Source: Bacteroidia bacterium
Lineage (GTDB): Bacteria > Bacteroidota > Bacteroidia > JADZBD01
DNA: 64,000 nucleotides
Direction: 5' to 3'
Assembly (NCBI GenBank): GCA_020054095.1
Contig: JAGVMA010000052.1
Location: 1 to 64,000 of the forward strand
In this document: positions 2,566 through 30,708 of the stretch, piece by piece
Numbering within the stretch: position 1 is the first letter of the stretch
How the letters are laid out: each line of letters opens with the position of its first letter
Made by a program: the position numbers and the translations under genes
Notes under the pieces: model-generated
What the model saw: only the letters and a program-made list of their open reading frames with translations
Database searches by the model: none
Told to the model about the DNA's origin: nothing

Positions 2566-4493
2566 TAAAAAGATTTACAATACTTGCTTTTTTCTTCTGC
2601 ACCTTGCTTAATGCCCAGGAAGTGGTTTCGCCTTTAAGCAACAATCCTTTTCAAATTATACATGCCGAAAAACAAAAAAAGCAAAGCGCTGTTACTCGTT
2701 TTCTAATGGCGCCAGGCGATACACTTTTGCTGCCATTTATTGATGATTTTTCGAGCACATTTATTTACCCCGATAGCACTAAATGGCTGGATAAAAAAGT
2801 TTATATCAATCGCGATTTTCCTATAGCCCCCATAACAATAGGCGTTGCCACTTTCGATGGTTTATCGGAAACGGGCTGCCCTTACGATACTGTTTCTACA
2901 AACGGAAACATAAATTTGAAATCAGATTCACTCACATCTAAGCCCATAAAGTTAGATTACCAACCATCGGATAGTATTTATATCAGTTTTTATTATCAGG
3001 CAAAGGGTAGGGGAGATAAACCCGAGTTAGACGACTCGCTGCTGCTCTATTTTAAAAATGCTAGTTCTGGGGCATGGAAGAAGGTGTGGGGCAGAGGCGG
3101 ATTAATAAATAACAGCCAAGCCGATAGTGTTTTCAGGCGCGTGATGATTGCCATTACTGATACGGCTTATTTAAAAAACGGATTTCAATTCAGGTTCATT
3201 AACAAATCGGCACGGCTCGGAAATATTGACCACTGGCATATAGATTATGTACAATTAAAAAACGCAAGTTTTAAAGCCGATACACTTATAAACGATGTGG
3301 CATTTGTTTACACACCATCATCGTATCTCAAAAATTTCCAGGCAATGCCTTGGAAACAATACAATGCATCTGAAATGACAGACTCGCTTTGGAATTTTGT
3401 TAGAAATAATCACACCGCGTTTTTAAACACTAACTACACATATAAAGTGTTTAACCAATTGCAAACACAATTACTCTCAGCTAATGGCTCTGGAAATATT
3501 GAACCATTTTTTACTTCGGGATATACTACATGCCTTATTCCCAGCACAGGCTGCCGACCGCTTTTACGGCCGCCTTTAAATAGCTTTCAGTTTCCTGCAC
3601 TTACAGGCAATACTTATTTTACACTCGAACATGTTATAAATGCATCGGGCGATATTAATTTGAAAAACGACACCATTCGCAGACGGCAAGATTTTATCAA
3701 TTACTATGCTTATGATGATGGCACAGCCGAGCTTGCTTACGGACTTAATGTGATAGGTTCAAAACTTGCGTATAAATTCACGCTGAATGTGCAAGATACT
3801 TTGCGTGCAGTTGATATGTACTTTAACTGGATAAACAACATGCTATCATCGCCACCGGTTAATAGCATTACACAACGTCAGTTTCGCATTACCATCTGGA
3901 ATAATAATAACGGCATACCCGGTGCAATTATTTACCAAGATAGCATTGTAACACCCGCTTATGAATTTGAATACTACACCGATTGGGGTAACCTCAGCAA
4001 TAAATTTTATAAATATGTGCTCACAAGCCCGCAGGTATTAAATACCGGAACTTTTTTTGTTGGCTGGGTGCAATACACCGATGATTTACTAAATATTGGT
4101 CTCGATTTGAATACAAATGCAAACACAAGTAAGCTGTTTTACAATACATTAGGTAATTGGTCGCAATCGGCCATACAAGGTTCGGTGATGATTAGGCCTG
4201 TTTTTGGTACTAATGGCGAAACTGCAGGGGAAGAAGATCAAGCGCAAGTGCAAAAAAATGTGTGGAAAGTTTTTCCAAATCCAGCTAATGATTTTATACA
4301 AATAAAAATTGACGAAGTTTTAACGCCATCTGCCATTTCAATTACGGATGAGGTTGGAAGAGAAATTTACACTTCGGCATACCTTACTGATATTAAAATT
4401 AATACTGCTGATTTCACTAACGGAATTTATCTTGTTCGTCTGCTATTGGCCGATGGCAGCCAATCGGTAAAAAAACTAATTATTGCCCGCTGA
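2562..4493 (+). CDS. Secreted protein with T9SS type A sorting domain
   Basis: This 643-residue exported protein starts at a GTG that overlaps the stop codon of the PASTA gene (GTGA). It has a signal peptide (FTILAFFFCTLLNAQ, about residues 4-19), a long beta-rich body without a catalytic motif I recognise, and a C-terminal type A sorting domain from about residue 570. That domain has the landmarks VFPNPANDF, a central DEVGREIY and the end NGIYLVRLLL...KKLIIAR. Type A domains direct substrates through T9SS to the cell surface or medium. Coupling to a PASTA protein and an RluD-like enzyme in one operon is seen in other Bacteroidota as far as I recall, but the role of the body is unknown. Confidence 0.88.
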   Translation: MIKRFTILAFFFCTLLNAQEVVSPLSNNPFQIIHAEKQKKQSAVTRFLMAPGDTLLLPFIDDFSSTFIYPDSTKWLDKKVYINRDFPIAPITIGVATFDGLSETGCPYDTVSTNGNINLKSDSLTSKPIKLDYQPSDSIYISFYYQAKGRGDKPELDDSLLLYFKNASSGAWKKVWGRGGLINNSQADSVFRRVMIAITDTAYLKNGFQFRFINKSARLGNIDHWHIDYVQLKNASFKADTLINDVAFVYTPSSYLKNFQAMPWKQYNASEMTDSLWNFVRNNHTAFLNTNYTYKVFNQLQTQLLSANGSGNIEPFFTSGYTTCLIPSTGCRPLLRPPLNSFQFPALTGNTYFTLEHVINASGDINLKNDTIRRRQDFINYYAYDDGTAELAYGLNVIGSKLAYKFTLNVQDTLRAVDMYFNWINNMLSSPPVNSITQRQFRITIWNNNNGIPGAIIYQDSIVTPAYEFEYYTDWGNLSNKFYKYVLTSPQVLNTGTFFVGWVQYTDDLLNIGLDLNTNANTSKLFYNTLGNWSQSAIQGSVMIRPVFGTNGETAGEEDQAQVQKNVWKVFPNPANDFIQIKIDEVLTPSAISITDEVGREIYTSAYLTDIKINTADFTNGIYLVRLLLADGSQSVKKLIIAR

Positions 4494-5587
4494 TGGCAAA
4501 ACACAAATCGCCAGAGTTAGATGATGCCGATGATGAGCTAAGCGAACAGGAATTATTTGAACACTTAAAAATTAAGGTTGATAAAGGCCAAACAATGCTG
4601 CGGATTGATAAATTTTTATTCAATCACATACAAAATGCCACCCGGAGTAAAATACAAAAAGCAGCAGATAATGGTTGTATTCGTGTAAACGGTAAGCCCG
4701 TAAAATCGAACTACAGAATAAAGCCGCTTGACGAAATTACTGTTTTGTTGCCTAACCCGCCACGAGAATTTGAACTGCAACCCGAAGATATCCCGTTAAA
4801 CATTGTTTTTGAAGATGATGATATAATTATTGTAAACAAAGCACCGGGCATGGTGGTTCATCCTGGTTTTGGCAATTATAGCAGCACACTTATAAATGCA
4901 TTACTGTATCATTTTAAAAACTTGCCGCAGCCAAAAAATAAATCGAACGACCCACATGCGGATATGCGCCCGGGTTTAGTTCACCGTATTGATAAGTTTA
5001 CTTCCGGATTACTTGTGATTGCCAAAACAGAAGATGCTCATGTGAAACTATCAAAACTGTTTTTTGACAGAAATATTGATCGCAAGTACGTGGCTTTGGT
5101 TTGGGGCGATGTGAAAGCCGATGAAGGAACAATTACAGGAAACATAGGCCGCAGCATTAAGGACAGGAAAATACGCACCGTTTTTGCCGATGGCACTATG
5201 GGAAAGCATGCAATTACACATTACAAAGTAATTGAACGATTTGGATATGTAACGCTGGTTGAGTGTAAATTAGAAACCGGCAGAACGCACCAAATTAGGG
5301 TGCACATGCAATATATTGGTCATCCACTTTTTAATGATATTGAATATGGTGGAGATACAATTATTAAAGGCACAACCTTTACTAAATACAAGCAATTTGT
5401 AGAAAATTGTTTCAGTATTTTACCACGCCATGCATTGCATGCTCAAACACTCGGTTTTGTCCATCCATCATCCGGCAAAGAAATAAAATTTGATTCGGAC
5501 ATACCTGATGATATGGCTGCGGCTATTAATAAGTGGAGAGATTATGCTAAAAACGTAATATTTAAGAAAGGCGATATTGAGGAATAG
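4493..5587 (+). CDS. rluD: RluA-family 23S rRNA pseudouridine synthase with S4 domain (RluD-like)
   Basis: This 364-residue enzyme isomerises uridine to pseudouridine in structured RNA. An S4 RNA-binding domain occupies about residues 35-92 (MLRIDKFLFNHI through GKPVKSNYRI). The catalytic domain follows, with GMVVHPG, the catalytic aspartate in LVHRIDKFTSGL near residue 167, KYVALVWG and the C-terminal LETGRTHQIRVHM motif. The S4 plus RluA architecture fits RluD, which modifies helix 69 of 23S rRNA, but RluC-type specificity cannot be excluded. The ATG at 4493 overlaps the previous stop by one base, so translation is coupled. A second RluA-family enzyme without an S4 domain lies at 54397. Confidence 0.92.
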   Translation: MAKHKSPELDDADDELSEQELFEHLKIKVDKGQTMLRIDKFLFNHIQNATRSKIQKAADNGCIRVNGKPVKSNYRIKPLDEITVLLPNPPREFELQPEDIPLNIVFEDDDIIIVNKAPGMVVHPGFGNYSSTLINALLYHFKNLPQPKNKSNDPHADMRPGLVHRIDKFTSGLLVIAKTEDAHVKLSKLFFDRNIDRKYVALVWGDVKADEGTITGNIGRSIKDRKIRTVFADGTMGKHAITHYKVIERFGYVTLVECKLETGRTHQIRVHMQYIGHPLFNDIEYGGDTIIKGTTFTKYKQFVENCFSILPRHALHAQTLGFVHPSSGKEIKFDSDIPDDMAAAINKWRDYAKNVIFKKGDIEE

Positions 5588-5675
5588 TTATTTAACTACT
5601 TTATTTTCAACATAAATAAAATTACATAATTTATATTATGTTAAATTATAGCACGAAAAACATATAACGAAAAAA

Positions 5676-5691
5676 GGACTCTTTCGAGTCC
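5676..5691. terminator. Bidirectional terminator
   Basis: GGACTC and GAGTCC form a stem with a TTTC loop, flanked by an A run on the left and a T run on the right. It therefore works for both the plus-strand RluD operon and the minus-strand gyrA-TPR operon that converge here. Confidence 0.75.
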
Positions 5692-5739
5692 CTTTTCTTT
5701 GCTTAAAACCATGCATAAAAGCAGCAAACTTTGTATGTT

Positions 5740-7011
5740 TTAGTTCTTAAGCATTTCCGATACCTTCTTATATTTTTCAGAGTCCGCTTGCCCGGTTTTG
5801 GCGTAAAGCTGCTTTAGCGCCTTCATGGTAAACTTGTCTGTTTTGTCTAATTCTAATGCTTTCTCCAACAAAGGTATTGCTTTTAAGAATATGTTTTTAG
5901 CTTTTTCTTCCTCTTGTTGAATACTTTTTGTGTCTTTTAGGTTTTGAGAGTTTTTTAACACCTCTGCCCCTAAATTATTATACATAATTCCAAAGCTATA
6001 CAAGGCTAAAGCATAATCTGGCTTTAATTCGATAGACTTATTAAACTCATTTTCAGCATTTTTAATTAATTCATCAAAATTACTTGGCTTAGGCATTTCT
6101 TTTCCATCTTTATCCATTGGAAATGCCATTTTACTGTAAGTTTGACCTAAAACAAGATGCAATTCCTGATTAATAGGTGTTTTTGAAATGGCTGTTTTTA
6201 AATTATTAACAGCTTCTTCTGATTTCCCCTCTTTTAAATCAATGTTTAACTGCTCTAATAAGAAAGTGTATTCATTAGGGAAAGCACTAACAGCGTTTTT
6301 AATTGCCGCTTTTGTACCCTCGTAATCGCCTTTGCTTTTGTTAGCTTCTATGATGTATGAATGGGTTTTAACAGGTTGATATTTAATGTCTAATAGTTTA
6401 TTATATAAACTAATGCCTCGATCATAATTTTTAATTTTGATAGCACTATAAGCTGCTATATCAAGCGATTGTGTGTCAATTTTGGTGCTGTATTTTTTAG
6501 TTAGTTCAAAGTTTTTTTCACCAAAAATAGTGGCATCGTCCCATTTTTTTCCATTGTAAAGCGCAATTATTTTGTAATCTAAGTTGGTGAGGCAATTTGC
6601 CAATAACTTCTTATTGTCGGATTCCCAATCTTTTTTTGTGTCTAAGTCTATTGATTGCTTATAGCTTTCAAGTGCGGTCTCCAAAGGATCGGTATTCACC
6701 GTTTGAAATGCAATTGAATTTTTCTTTTGCATATCAGTTTCGGTAATTTTTGCCAAAATCTCAGATAATTCTTTATCGAAATACGCATGGTAAATTTTAC
6801 CTCTATAATGCCATGTTTTTGCTTTGTCTTTTGTGTCAGTATGCTTTGCCGCTGAATCTATGCGCTGCTTAGCTTTGTTTAAATCGGCAGGGTCTTTTTC
6901 CTTCAAATATGAATTGAGGTAATTTATAGCACTCACCACATTATTGTTTTGTGCCTGTAAGGTAAATGTTGAAGCTATAAGCGTAATGACTGCTAAAGTT
7001 TGTTTAATCAT
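5740..7011 (-). CDS. Exported TPR-repeat protein
   Basis: This 423-residue protein has a signal peptide (residues 1-20, ending TLQAQ) and then helical repeats of the tetratricopeptide type, for example ALESYKQSIDLD, the RGISLYNKLLDI stretch, ENEFNKSIELKPDYALALYSFG and AIPLLEKALELDKTDKFTMKALKQLY. TPR arrays mediate protein-protein contacts, here in the periplasm or at the envelope. The gene begins three bases after the gyrA stop, so it is co-transcribed with gyrA. This gyrA-TPR order is one I associate with Bacteroidota, but no functional link is established. No enzymatic motif is seen. Confidence 0.85.
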   Translation of the reverse strand: MIKQTLAVITLIASTFTLQAQNNNVVSAINYLNSYLKEKDPADLNKAKQRIDSAAKHTDTKDKAKTWHYRGKIYHAYFDKELSEILAKITETDMQKKNSIAFQTVNTDPLETALESYKQSIDLDTKKDWESDNKKLLANCLTNLDYKIIALYNGKKWDDATIFGEKNFELTKKYSTKIDTQSLDIAAYSAIKIKNYDRGISLYNKLLDIKYQPVKTHSYIIEANKSKGDYEGTKAAIKNAVSAFPNEYTFLLEQLNIDLKEGKSEEAVNNLKTAISKTPINQELHLVLGQTYSKMAFPMDKDGKEMPKPSNFDELIKNAENEFNKSIELKPDYALALYSFGIMYNNLGAEVLKNSQNLKDTKSIQQEEEKAKNIFLKAIPLLEKALELDKTDKFTMKALKQLYAKTGQADSEKYKKVSEMLKN

Positions 7012-24759: not shown

Positions 24760-24787
24760 TTGGCTAAATACATTGCACTTACATTTG
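24760..24787 (+). promoter_or_regulatory. Promoter of the WG-repeat gene
   Basis: TTG at 24760-24762 and TACATTTG at 24780-24787 are 17 bases apart, an excellent Bacteroidetes promoter. The box ends five bases before the ATG at 24793, so the transcript should start at or next to the start codon. Confidence 0.65.
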
Positions 24788-24792
24788 TGCTA

Positions 24793-26895
24793 ATGAAATT
24801 AAAAGGGCTAATTCTGTTTTTGTTTTGGACGGCAGCAATTAATGCCGCTAAAATTGATAAAGCATATCAAGCGCTAAAAATTTACGATTACTTTAAGGCG
24901 AAACAATTGTTTTATGCTTCGCTAAAAAAAAACAAAGCAGCAGCAGCATTCGGTCTTGCCACTATTTATTACCGAACCGATAATCCTTTTCACAATATTG
25001 ATTCGGCTCACAGATACATTAACCTCGCTTTGCAAAACAGCTACAACGAAAAAGAGAAACAAATGCTTGCAAAGTACAATATTTCTAATTTAACACTTAC
25101 CGATTTTCGTGAAATGATATTTCTGCGTGCTTATGAATATGCAGCTAAAAAAAATACAATTGCCGATTACGATACCTATATAACCAATTACATTGATGCT
25201 CCGCAGCATAAAACGGCAATTAAAAAACGTCATGCACTTGCGTTTTCGCTCGCCAAACAATTAGATACGCCCGATGGCTATCAAAATTTTATGGAAAAAT
25301 ATGCTGATGCGGATGAGTACGAAGAAGCGAAACAACTTTACGAATCAACATTGTTTGCTACTTACACCTCTTCGGGTAGTATTAGTGCTTATGAAAGTTT
25401 CATCTCTAAATATCAGCAAAGCCCATATATAAATGAATGTGAAAATGCTATTTATGCATTAATGGTAGTGAAAGGTACAATAGATGAATACCACGATTTT
25501 GTAAAACGCTATCCTAAAAACCATAATGTGGAAACTGCTTGGCATAATATTTACACCATTTTTACAACTGATTATACTGCTGAATCGTTTCAGAAATTTA
25601 AAAACTCATTTCCCGATTATCCATACACCGAAAAAGTAAATACAGATATAGAATTATCAAAACTTATTTTGCTACCCATTAAACGCAATGGCAAATGGGG
25701 TTATTGTGATACAAGCGGAACAGTAAAAATTGATTTCTTATACGATTGGTGCGAAACTTTTACGGAAGGTTTGGCACAAATTGAATTAAACAACAAAATT
25801 GGTTTCATTAACAAACAAGGTTTGTTACAAATTCCATATCAGTATGACGAAGCCGAAAAATTCGCGAATGGATATTGCTTGGTGAAATTAAAAGGGAAGT
25901 ACGGCATTATACATAAAACAGGAAAATTAATTGTGCCTCCCGATTTTGATGAAGTGAAAACATATTCTGAGGGAATGGTAGCTGTGAAAAAAAATAAAAA
26001 ATACGGTTACTATGATGAATTTGGCAAATTGGTTATTGATTGCATTTATGATGCAGCCGGAGATTTTTATAACGGACTTGCAACAATTGTGGTAGGCGGC
26101 AAATATGGTTTTATAAGCAAGCAAGGCAACGTAGTAATTGCCTGCGATTACGATTGGGCAGAAGGTTATATTACACAAACATCGCGTGTGAAACAAAACG
26201 GAAAATTTGGCGTGATTAACACATCAGGTAAATTTACAATTAACTGTACGTATGATTTCATGAGTGAGTTTAGCGAAGGTTATGCGTTGGTTGCTGTGGG
26301 TAAAAAATGTGGTTTTATTAATCTAAAAGGAGAAATCAAAATTCCGCTCGATTATGATTTTACCAATGAGATACAATCGCAAAGTAAATTTTACAATGGC
26401 TGCGCCAAAGTAGAATTAAAAGGCAAGCAAGGATTAATTGACACGAGTGGTAAATACATCGTGCCGCGCGATTATGAAGACATTGCACCTTTCTGCGAAG
26501 GTTTATCTGCCATCAAGAAAAAAGATAAATACGGCTACTTAGACAAAAAACTAAAACTTATCATTCCTTACTCCTACTCTGCTGCTGCAAATTTTAACAG
26601 TGGGTTGGCGCGTGTTAAAAAAGATTATTTCTATGGATTTATTGATAAAAAGAAAAAACTGATAATTGCTTTTGAATTTGACGATGCTACCGACTTTAAA
26701 AATGGCTATTCGATGCTCACAAAAAATGAAAAAATGGGAATGATTGACAGCAAAGGCATTTTTGTTTTGAACTGCGAATACGATGAAATAAGTAATGCCG
26801 ATGAACATGGATTTCTCTTGTTACAAAAAAATGAAAAGATTGCTTGGTTTGACTTAGTTAATCGGAAATTTATTTGGAAAGAAGAAGGATTTTAA
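24793..26895 (+). CDS. Exported WG-repeat protein
   Basis: The ATG at 24793 gives 700 residues with a signal peptide (MKLKGLILFLFWTAAINA). A longer frame from a TTG at 24760 is rejected because that TTG is the promoter -33 box. Residues about 20-290 are helical and TPR-like, with repeated YEEAKQLYEST and YHDFVKRYPKN segments. The rest consists of about eleven WG-type beta repeats, each with a K.G...D/N turn (NGKWGYCD, NKIGFIN, GKYGIIH, KKYGYYD, GKYGFIS, GKFGVIN, KKCGFIN, GKQGLID, DKYGYLD, YFYGFID, EKMGMID). WG repeats occur in secreted and surface proteins of uncertain role. A short GNAT gene follows closely. Confidence 0.85.
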   Translation: MKLKGLILFLFWTAAINAAKIDKAYQALKIYDYFKAKQLFYASLKKNKAAAAFGLATIYYRTDNPFHNIDSAHRYINLALQNSYNEKEKQMLAKYNISNLTLTDFREMIFLRAYEYAAKKNTIADYDTYITNYIDAPQHKTAIKKRHALAFSLAKQLDTPDGYQNFMEKYADADEYEEAKQLYESTLFATYTSSGSISAYESFISKYQQSPYINECENAIYALMVVKGTIDEYHDFVKRYPKNHNVETAWHNIYTIFTTDYTAESFQKFKNSFPDYPYTEKVNTDIELSKLILLPIKRNGKWGYCDTSGTVKIDFLYDWCETFTEGLAQIELNNKIGFINKQGLLQIPYQYDEAEKFANGYCLVKLKGKYGIIHKTGKLIVPPDFDEVKTYSEGMVAVKKNKKYGYYDEFGKLVIDCIYDAAGDFYNGLATIVVGGKYGFISKQGNVVIACDYDWAEGYITQTSRVKQNGKFGVINTSGKFTINCTYDFMSEFSEGYALVAVGKKCGFINLKGEIKIPLDYDFTNEIQSQSKFYNGCAKVELKGKQGLIDTSGKYIVPRDYEDIAPFCEGLSAIKKKDKYGYLDKKLKLIIPYSYSAAANFNSGLARVKKDYFYGFIDKKKKLIIAFEFDDATDFKNGYSMLTKNEKMGMIDSKGIFVLNCEYDEISNADEHGFLLLQKNEKIAWFDLVNRKFIWKEEGF

Positions 26896-27338: not shown

Positions 27339-28190
27339 TTAATTGAGAATTATTTTGCGTGTTGTAATCTTATTGCTCTCAATCATTCTCACAAAATAAA
27401 TACCACGAGCATAATTTCCGGTATTTATAATGGTGGCGCCAGTAGCATTATAAATGCTTTCAATATTTTTTCCGGTAATATCCATAAGCGTTATCTCATC
27501 CAAATTGGTTAAACCCGAATTAATAATTAAATTATTATTTGATTGATAAACAACTGCACCATTGCCACTGCTTGTTTGTGATTGCTCCTCGCCTGTGGTG
27601 AGCGAATAATATACTGTTACCGAAACATTATCTACATACACATTAACACTTGACGAAACCGAATTGTAAATTTTAATAAACACACCGAAATTTGAATTAT
27701 TTATCAATGTGGGCGTCCAATTGTAATTCCATAAATCGGTACTGTTGCCGTATTGTTTGGTATCGCTTGTAGTACTCCAGCTGTTTGCATCGGCATAATT
27801 ATTTCCCACAAGTGAATTTGCAATGCCAAGTTTTATGGTAGAGTCTAAAACTCCTGAAGCACTTGCATAACCATTAACAGCTAACTCTATTCCTTTTACA
27901 GTTGCATTACCTGGAATCGAAAAATTATAATTAGTGGTGTGTAAGTATCTGCTCCAGTAACAAAAAGTAGCAGCACAGTTTAAATAATTTTGCAGCAGAA
28001 CATTTGTGTACTGGCTGTTTTGGGAAAAAACATTTTGATCGTTAAGCCACATTGCTCCCGAACATGGTATGCAAGAACTTAGCGGTTGGTTTTCAGAATT
28101 AGCGGAATTAGAAGGTCCTTGATTTTGCGCTGATAGAGAAGAAAAAGAAATCGTTACTGACAAAAAAATTGCGCGTAAGATTGTTTTCAT
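27339..28190 (-). CDS. Small secreted protein with T9SS type A sorting domain
   Basis: This 283-residue protein has a signal peptide (ending SSLSAQ). It has a beta-rich body with a region (IPGNATVKGIELAVNGYASASG, VYVDNVSVTVYY) typical of jelly-roll surface modules. The C-terminal sorting domain has a canonical end (ITLMDITGKNIES, NYARGIYFVRMI, TTRKIILN). No catalytic motif is apparent. It converges with the GNAT gene and leaves only six bases between stops. Confidence 0.82.
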   Translation of the reverse strand: MKTILRAIFLSVTISFSSLSAQNQGPSNSANSENQPLSSCIPCSGAMWLNDQNVFSQNSQYTNVLLQNYLNCAATFCYWSRYLHTTNYNFSIPGNATVKGIELAVNGYASASGVLDSTIKLGIANSLVGNNYADANSWSTTSDTKQYGNSTDLWNYNWTPTLINNSNFGVFIKIYNSVSSSVNVYVDNVSVTVYYSLTTGEEQSQTSSGNGAVVYQSNNNLIINSGLTNLDEITLMDITGKNIESIYNATGATIINTGNYARGIYFVRMIESNKITTRKIILN

Positions 28191-28291: not shown

Positions 28292-29596
28292 ATGAATACT
28301 CGCAGGTCATTCCTTAAAAAAGCCGCTGCGGCAGCCGGAACACTATCGTTCATCGAAATCACAAATCCTATTTTTGCTGCCGAACTACAGAATAAAATCG
28401 ACAAACTGAAACATTTAACTCCCGATGAAGCAGCAAAAGATGAAGATTTTTGGAGCTGGGTGCGCGAAAGCTTTACGGTTTCGTCCACCATCATTAATTT
28501 GAATAACGGAGGCGTTAGCCCTCAACCCAAAGTAGTGCAAGATGCACACATTCAAAATTATCAAATGAGTAATTGGGGTCCATCTCATTTCATGTGGCAT
28601 ATATTAGACCAGGGACGCGAACCATTGCGCGCTAAAATTGCATTGCTTGCAGGATGCTCACCCGAAGAAATTGCCATTAACCGCAATTCAACCGAAGGTT
28701 TAAACACCATTATTTTTGGACTTAATTTAAAGGCTGGCGATGAAGTGGTTTTATCGAAATACGATTATCCTAACATGATGAATGCCTGGAAACAGCGCGA
28801 GAAACGCGATGGAATAAAATTAGTGTGGGTTGATTTTGATTTGCCGATAGAGAACGATAAAATTGCGGTGGCCACATATACAAAAGCAATTACATCTAAA
28901 ACCAAAATTGTACACATCACACACATGATTAACTGGAGCGGGCAATTAATGCCCGTGAAAGCAATTGCCGAAAATGCGCACGCTCGCGGCTGCGAAGTAA
29001 TTGTGGATGGCGCGCATACCTTTTGCCATATTGAATATAAAATAAATGATTTAGATTGCGATTACTACGCAACATCGCTGCACAAATGGGCATGCGCTCC
29101 GTTTGGCAGCGGCATGATGTACATTAAGAAAGACAAAATAAAAAATGTGTGGGCGCTTTTATCGGCACCCGAACCGGATGGAGCTGATATACGCAAATTC
29201 GAAAATTTAGGAACGCGAAACATGGCAGCCGAAATGGCTATTGCCAATGCATTGGATTTTCATAACACAATTGGTTCGGCACGAAAAGAAGCGCGCTTGC
29301 GTTATTTAAAAAATTATTGGTGTGGAAAAATTACACATCCAAAATTTAAACTCAATACATCGTTGCAAACTATGTGGAGCTGCGCCATTGCTAATTTTAG
29401 TATTGATGGTTGGGATGCGGGAGATATTGCATCTAAACTGATGGAGAAAAAGAAAATACACACCGTTGCCATTAAATGGGAAAAATTAAATGGCGTGCGT
29501 GTAACGCCTCATGTTTACACATCGTTGGCCGATTTAGATAAATTAGTGGAAGGCATAAAAGAAATTTGTGAGATGCCTGTGCCGTTAAAAAAATAA
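28292..29596 (+). CDS. Tat-exported class V PLP-dependent enzyme (aminotransferase / isopenicillin N epimerase-like)
   Basis: The chosen ATG at 28292 gives 434 residues starting with a twin-arginine signal, NTRRSFLKK followed by an Ala-rich hydrophobic stretch and a cleavage-like IFAAE. A longer frame reaching 28169 is rejected, because a TACATTTG promoter box sits at 28266-28273. The fold-type I PLP core is clear: NNGGVSPQP, the INRNSTEGLNTIIFG segment, the VDGAHTFCHI motif that holds the PLP aspartate, and the Schiff-base lysine in TSLHKWACAPFGSG. The Tat route fits a cofactor-bearing protein folded before export. It is related to cysteine desulfurases and isopenicillin N epimerases, but the reaction is not known. 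The RidA gene follows after one base. Confidence 0.88.
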   Translation: MNTRRSFLKKAAAAAGTLSFIEITNPIFAAELQNKIDKLKHLTPDEAAKDEDFWSWVRESFTVSSTIINLNNGGVSPQPKVVQDAHIQNYQMSNWGPSHFMWHILDQGREPLRAKIALLAGCSPEEIAINRNSTEGLNTIIFGLNLKAGDEVVLSKYDYPNMMNAWKQREKRDGIKLVWVDFDLPIENDKIAVATYTKAITSKTKIVHITHMINWSGQLMPVKAIAENAHARGCEVIVDGAHTFCHIEYKINDLDCDYYATSLHKWACAPFGSGMMYIKKDKIKNVWALLSAPEPDGADIRKFENLGTRNMAAEMAIANALDFHNTIGSARKEARLRYLKNYWCGKITHPKFKLNTSLQTMWSCAIANFSIDGWDAGDIASKLMEKKKIHTVAIKWEKLNGVRVTPHVYTSLADLDKLVEGIKEICEMPVPLKK

Positions 29597-29597
29597 A

Positions 29598-30083
29598 ATG
29601 CTGAACCGAACTACCATTTTTTCATTCATCATTATCGCTTTTATTACTGCGGGTATTCTGTTTTATTTTATCAATCAGAAACCCGAAATTTTTAAGCACC
29701 ACATTATTTTTACTGAACAGGCGCCCAAACCCATTGGGCCTTACAGCCAAGCTGTGCTAACGGGTAATACCTTATTTGTATCGGGGCAAATTGCCATTAA
29801 TCCGAAAACGGGAGTTTTAGATACTGCATCAATAAAAACAGAAACCGAACGTGTGATGAAAAACATTGGCGCAATTTTAACTGCCGCACAAATGAACTAT
29901 AGCAATATTGTGAAAACTACCATTTACTTAGCCGACTTAAAACAATTTGCTGAAGTAAACATACTATACGAATCGTATTTTAAAACTGCAGCCAATAATT
30001 ATTTTCCCGCTCGCGAAACTGTACAAGTATCTGCATTGCCCAAAGGCGCACACATAGAAATTTCGGTGATTGCCGTGAGGTAG
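29598..30083 (+). CDS. Membrane-anchored RidA-family enamine/imine deaminase
   Basis: This 161-residue protein has an N-terminal transmembrane helix (about residues 7-25) and then a complete Rid domain: EQAPKPIGPYSQAV, LFVSGQIAINPKTG, the VMKNIGAILTAAQMNYSNIVKTTIYLAD stretch and PARETVQVSALPKGAHIEIS. The arginine in PARETV is the conserved carboxylate-binding residue of active Rid proteins. RidA hydrolyses reactive enamines and imines made by PLP enzymes. It lies one base behind a Tat-exported PLP enzyme, and its own anchor puts the Rid domain in the periplasm too. The lack of a cysteine lipobox argues for a membrane anchor rather than a lipoprotein. Confidence 0.9.
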   Translation: MLNRTTIFSFIIIAFITAGILFYFINQKPEIFKHHIIFTEQAPKPIGPYSQAVLTGNTLFVSGQIAINPKTGVLDTASIKTETERVMKNIGAILTAAQMNYSNIVKTTIYLADLKQFAEVNILYESYFKTAANNYFPARETVQVSALPKGAHIEISVIAVR

Positions 30084-30118: not shown

Positions 30119-30708
30119 ATGAGTGGAAGAAATCTATATATAATTGCAGGATGTAATGGCGCAGGCAAAACCACTGCATCATTTACCATTCTCCCTGAAA
30201 TTATTAGTTGCAAAATTTTTGTAAATGCCGATGAAATAGCAAAAGGATTATCCCCGTTTGAACCTGAAAAGGTATCTGTGGATGCAGGAAAAATAACGCT
30301 AAACAGAATAAAAGATTTGCTCAACATGAACCAAAGTTTTGCATTTGAAACAACGCTATCAACTAAAAGTTTCAGAGGAACAATTATTAATGCAAAAAAC
30401 AAAGGATATAATATTACATTGCTTTTCTTTTCTTTTGGTTACGAAATGTGGAGCTAGCAAAAGAGCGTGTGAGAACGAGAGTATCTGAAGGCGGCCACAA
30501 TATTCCTCATGATGTAATAGAAAGAAGGTATATAAAAGGCATAAAAAATCTATTTGATATTTACGTTCCTATTCTTGATGGACTTATGATTTTTGACAAT
30601 TCTGAGGGAAAGCATAAATTAATTGCACAAAAAACAATTAATGGTAATTTCGAAATTATTAATGAACATACATTTTCCGAACTAAAAAATACTTATGACA
30701 AAAGCTGA
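30119..30708 (+). pseudogene. Zeta-toxin-like P-loop kinase, frameshifted at a CTTTT repeat
   Basis: The first part (30119-30457) has the P-loop AGCNGAGKTT, a VNADEIAKGL segment and FAFETTLST, the pattern of the zeta-toxin / COG4185 predicted ATPase group. It then runs out of frame into a stop. The second part (in another frame to 30708) continues with VELAKERVRTRVSEGGHNIP, the conserved lid and C-terminal half. The break coincides with three tandem CTTTT units at 30422-30436. Taking one unit out joins the halves as LLFFWLRNVELAKERV and gives a normal-length protein of 194 residues. It is therefore either a frameshift pseudogene or a phase-variable gene in the off state. Confidence 0.8.
30422..30436 (+). 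repeat. Three tandem CTTTT units inside the zeta-like gene
   Basis: The pentanucleotide CTTTT is present three times without gaps. Two copies would keep the host gene in frame. Units of this size are prone to slipped-strand mispairing. Confidence 0.85.

Follow-up and report, generated by a model that had tools for sequence, protein, structure and literature searches.

A conserved gene pair for a Tat-type PLP enzyme and a signal-bearing RidA protein in Bacteroidota, with a putative role outside the cytoplasm

In a window of 64,000 nucleotides of DNA from a Bacteroidia bacterium, we found two adjacent genes that encode a class V PLP enzyme with a Tat-type signal and a RidA protein behind a hydrophobic N-terminal helix. 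More than 20 Bacteroidota loci show the same order, an indication that in some bacteria B6 chemistry and the clean-up that goes with it are paired outside the cytoplasm. We consider it reasonably probable that the pair forms an operon for a two-step extracytoplasmic reaction, in which the product of the exported PLP enzyme, an enamine or imine, is hydrolysed by the exported RidA. The wider proposal, that this large Tat-exported PLP family of Bacteroidota performs periplasmic amine chemistry and that part of it is coupled to an exported, compartment-matched RidA as imine hydrolase, is put forward more tentatively. What is known of RidA concerns almost entirely its protection of PLP enzymes in the cytoplasm, and PLP is not easily replaced in the periplasm. 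If the proposal holds, imine damage would be managed also in the periplasm, RidA function would follow the PLP enzyme across the membrane, and the envelope of many Bacteroidota would house a PLP reaction yet to be assigned, to which the RidA partner, predicting an imine as the product of the PLP enzyme, would give a direct way in.

The two genes and their products

An earlier note on this DNA had described a class V PLP enzyme with a TRRSFLKK motif, followed after one base by a RidA domain behind an N-terminal helix, and that description proved correct (28292-29596 and 29598-30083). The features of the two genes, with the basis of each assignment in brackets, were the following.

28292..29596, + strand: class V (fold-type I) PLP enzyme P0001, 434 aa (PF00266, AlphaFold model, PvdN match)
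28292..28378, + strand: twin-arginine signal region, residues 1-29, MNTRRSFLKK...NPIFA (motif, orthologue conservation, TatC in the genome)
29006..29008, + strand: Asp239, expected partner of the PLP pyridine nitrogen (51/51 orthologues)
29084..29086, + strand: Lys265, expected PLP Schiff-base lysine, in SLHKW (51/51 orthologues)
29597..29597, + strand: one-base gap between the PLP and RidA genes (starts of paired RidAs lie near the PLP stop)
29598..30083, + strand: RidA-subfamily protein with N-terminal anchor, P0002, 161 aa (TIGR00004)
29610..29672, + strand: hydrophobic N-terminal helix, residues 5-25, predicted signal anchor (hydropathy; equivalents in intact paired RidAs)
29700..30080, + strand: RidA domain (TIGR00004 match, residues 35-160)
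30012..30014, + strand: Arg139, in PARETV, equivalent of the RidA catalytic arginine (invariant in 19 aligned paired RidAs)
30057-30059, + strand: Glu154 of RidA, active site (invariant in 19 aligned paired RidAs)

The start of the PLP enzyme was placed at the ATG at 28292, the mechanically called ORF from the TTG at 28169 being an extension upstream of it. Pfam returned Aminotran_5 (PF00266) with 149 bits against a cut-off of 21.5, and with both this domain and the expected PLP lysine and aspartate present the protein was assigned to the class V fold-type I enzymes; its AlphaFold model had a pLDDT of 92. The lysine of SLHKW has the HK motif of SufS as its counterpart in the alignment. Other conserved residues were Y159, near the ring-stacking place, N214 (48 of 51 orthologues) and R403, which is invariant in the orthologue alignment and is the expected carboxylate anchor.

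The RidA protein matched Ribonuc_L-PSP (PF01042) with 134 bits (cut-off 27.3) and the Rid family model TIGR00004 of NCBIfam with 158.5 bits (cut-off 106.25), and together with the retained catalytic Arg and Glu this places it in the RidA subfamily. With its predicted active site intact, it would be expected to have enamine/imine deaminase activity. Its N-terminus reads MLNR-TTIFSFIIIAFITAGILFYFI-NQK, a hydrophobic helix of 21 residues with one positive charge ahead of it. Structure prediction from the single RidA sequence reached a pLDDT of 58.7, too poor for use.

Conservation and coupling of the gene pair

Genomes of the same class, together with a public genome collection, supplied the orthologues of the PLP enzyme; many of these genomes are metagenome-assembled, and all counts below of linked and unlinked RidA refer to 171 distinct PLP loci with enough DNA downstream. 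The same two-gene order, which the earlier note had proposed to look for in other Bacteroidota, was present in 23 of the 171 loci, with RidA directly downstream on the same strand, and in one extra case (G038) at a contig edge. The RidA start was readable in 22 pairs and in every one of them lay from -23 to +8 nt relative to the PLP stop, with 10 at -4 or -1 nt; the one-base gap in the window suggests translational coupling. When all neighbours were compared, RidA was the only strongly recurrent gene directly 3' of the PLP orthologues. A rough estimate of chance adjacency, taking two to four Rid genes in about 3000, gave well below one expected case in the 171 loci, as against the 23 seen in many lineages.

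That the pairing is accidental and has no functional meaning is therefore highly improbable: the lack of an adjoining RidA in 148 of the 171 loci speaks for it, but it is contradicted by the number of adjacencies, their spread over lineages and the position of the start codons at the PLP stop, and we rejected accidental gene order on its conservation and close coupling. Those 148 loci also count against the proposed two-step operon, since many of the genomes concerned showed signal-free RidAs only, so that the PLP enzyme can work without a linked RidA. In a tree of the PLP enzymes, the label of pair or no pair changed nine times, all within one subtree of 95 rows, so that the pair either is ancient and was lost repeatedly or arose on more than one occasion; the PLP enzyme occurred without a linked RidA outside this subtree and in the greater part of it. 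The PLP family as such was found in 185 of 395 genomes of the class, about half (E 1e-40), and in 59 of 198 genomes sampled across the phylum (E 1e-80). Being far more widespread and mostly without a linked RidA, the PLP enzyme has in RidA an accessory partner. The suggestion in the earlier note of a dedicated pair thus stood with regards to conserved order and signals, but RidA is accessory and not obligate. No assigned function for this PLP family was found. In a set of three loci (L065 in G057, L075 in G014 and L076 in G093), the PLP gene of one pair was split by a frameshift with its anchored RidA intact, and two genomes of the same genus retained the anchored RidA with no detectable PLP orthologue.

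Export signals and the side of the RidA domain

Tat signals and anchors were called from motifs, hydropathy and conservation. The N-terminus of the PLP protein, MNTRRSFLKKAAAAAGTLSF..., is of the Tat type, with N-T-R-R-S-F-L-K-K, a moderately hydrophobic stretch and F-A-A near residue 29. Among the 171 PLP orthologues, 153 carried RR and 17 an RK, KR or RH variant, a point against the proposal; the remaining copy was a frameshift fragment. Across the 51 aligned orthologues R4 was found in 50 and F7 in all. The genome of the window has a TatC gene (220 bits); in locus L200, moreover, TatC follows the PLP gene closely, and in L102 it comes one gene after the pair. Tat is thus the probable route by which the PLP enzyme is exported. 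An N-terminal hydrophobic segment, anchor-like in most cases, was found in every intact paired RidA, and so both members keep export signals, a point on which the earlier note had made its reading depend.

The paired RidAs of loci L092/L094, L102 and L210 had short segments of 13-17 residues that abut the domain and end in FS/Q, LA/Q or FA/Q just before it, and these look like cleavable signal peptides. That at least two lineages have an apparent signal peptide in place of the anchor is most readily explained by a RidA domain outside the cytoplasm, and we infer that the domain is on the periplasmic side. Charges around the helix were mixed, with a C-flank more positive than the N-tail in several pairs, and charge alone therefore leaves the topology unsettled. 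Several anchors being at least as positive after the helix (a C-flank of +2 in L038 and of +2 in L089, for example) would agree with a RidA domain that faces the cytoplasm and removes imines close to the membrane, such as those that the PLP enzyme might form prior to its export; the two proteins would then occupy separate compartments. We find this arrangement distinctly unlikely in view of the signal-peptide-like N-termini abutting the domain in the orthologues just named, N-tails that are short and positive, and separate signal-free RidAs that already serve the cytoplasm.

Such separate copies were common: at least one further main-subfamily RidA was present in 13 other pair genomes and in that of the window, and the 14 second copies that were read started at or just before the domain, without a clear signal. 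In a tree of RidA proteins with ambiguous starts left out, signal-bearing and signal-free proteins separated with two changes, although with only 123 columns its branches are poorly resolved. PARET as a mark specific to paired RidAs was ruled out, as it also occurs in cytosolic RidAs of Bacteroidia. A partial parallel came from a three-gene operon in which a Tat-type PLP paralogue is followed by a class V PLP gene without a signal and then by a signal-free RidA, located as follows.

2964-5822 of the reverse complement of L262 (G175), - strand: ORFs of the three-gene operon (sequence read)

The same operon is probable in G145, from matching positions and the same RidA start. A signal-free RidA beside a signal-free PLP enzyme would fit compartment matching, as a partial parallel only.

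Unlinked RidAs with lipoprotein-like or signal-peptide-like N-termini were also seen in Bacteroidia (L165, L072, L073, L175-L177, L267 and L268), mostly with an alternative internal Met start; the starts of unlinked RidAs are often ambiguous because a Met falls between hydrophobic stretch and domain. Unlinked RidAs of this kind in other Bacteroidia would be expected if the exported RidA were a general envelope imine deaminase, or else a stress chaperone, co-transcribed with the PLP gene by chance, and E. coli RidA turns into a chaperone upon HOCl treatment (PMC4284807). Against this stand the tight coupling to a single PLP family, which recurs in divergent lineages while no other gene recurs downstream, and the invariant catalytic Arg and Glu, so that we hold this explanation to be unlikely and prefer a RidA working with its linked PLP enzyme.

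Relatives of the PLP enzyme and the proposed reaction

PvdN and PtaA, two periplasmic PLP enzymes that Tat exports, act in pyoverdine tailoring in Pseudomonas (PMC6206403); PvdN is exported with PLP bound and catalyses oxidative decarboxylation of the pyoverdine glutamate (PMC6206403, PMC7497351). The PLP enzyme of the window shares with PvdN the class V fold-type I architecture, the RR signal and alignment over the full length (residues 1-421), and the N-terminal Tat signal was found in most of its family, by motif only. PvdN was the solved protein that aligned from the signal onward (residues 1-422) and the best solved match for the C-terminal domain alone (E 3e-5), and its structure 5i90 had the highest TM-score among the structural matches listed (TMt 0.88, by target length). 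The enzyme scored 133.9, however, against the equivalog cut-off of 650 of the PvdN model NF051467, and part of its family is followed by RidA. No pyoverdine-cluster genes lay beside the pair in the window region examined, and the neighbour comparison gave no recurrent siderophore genes beside the PLP orthologues. With a score so far under the cut-off of the model, the family is PvdN-like and not PvdN; PvdN proper was rejected by score and gene context and kept as an analogue.

The best matches by E-value were SufS-type cysteine desulfurases, which have the fold and the PLP-site motifs in common with the PLP enzyme, but the latter carries an export signal and scored 142.8 against the SufS cut-off of 475.1. 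The catalytic-cysteine loop of SufS aligned to H390-T-V-A-I, with a Cys at residue 391 in only 4 of 51 orthologues, and cysteine desulfurase was rejected on this lack of loop conservation and on the score. In LmbF and CcbF, elimination or oxidative deamination accompanies an Asn or a Tyr at what is apparently the position of N214 (PMC11794154); by alignment, the Asn of the present enzyme leans weakly towards elimination.

The earlier note had said that the hydrolysis by RidA is described in the cytoplasm, but extracytoplasmic precedents exist: in Chlamydomonas an L-amino-acid oxidase of the periplasm (LAO1/LAO2) has RidA as its partner, and in Gluconacetobacter a Tat-type oxidase shares an operon with ridA, lao-cccA-ridA (PMC5053998, PMC10805672). 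These modules resemble the present pair in linking an exported imine producer, a putative one here, genetically to RidA, but their producer is a flavoenzyme, whereas here, in another lineage, no flavin amine oxidase but a PLP enzyme takes that place. RidA-subfamily genes are also known to cluster with those of cytosolic PLP enzymes, including threonine dehydratase and cysteine desulfurase (PMC4433059). There, too, a main-subfamily RidA adjoins a PLP enzyme gene, but in the window both members have export signals; PMC4433059 yielded no mention of exported Rid proteins, and the literature searched gave no direct report of a pair in which PLP enzyme and RidA are both exported. Periplasmic pairs of amino-acid oxidase and RidA are thus already known, and what is new here is the PLP-enzyme variant of that arrangement.

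In the reaction that we propose, the PLP enzyme would fold with its cofactor in the cytoplasm and then be exported by Tat, as PvdN is. Its periplasmic substrate would be an amino compound, probably with a free alpha-carboxylate held by Arg403, from which it may release an enamine or imine, either a species of the 2-aminoacrylate type or an imine formed by oxidation. RidA, exported via its own anchor or signal peptide and having a normal RidA active site, would hydrolyse the imine to a carbonyl product and ammonia and so complete the reaction. This hydrolysis would also protect periplasmic PLP enzymes where re-supply of the cofactor is difficult. Gene order, close coupling, signals, catalytic residues and TatC were observed, while imine formation by the one protein and clearance by the other are inferences.

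Deducing the substrate from neighbouring genes was tried and given up, there being no recurrent metabolic neighbour besides RidA, and the neighbours in the window (WG repeats, GNAT, a T9SS-sorted protein and a zeta-like ORF) gave no clue to it. The WG-repeat protein, with nine repeat matches, is encoded upstream of the pair at 24760-26895. Directly after RidA, at 30119-30705, comes an ORF for a zeta-toxin-like ATPase that is broken by a frameshift near 30440, with reading resumed in another frame to about 30705; this ORF may represent a decaying gene or an assembly error.
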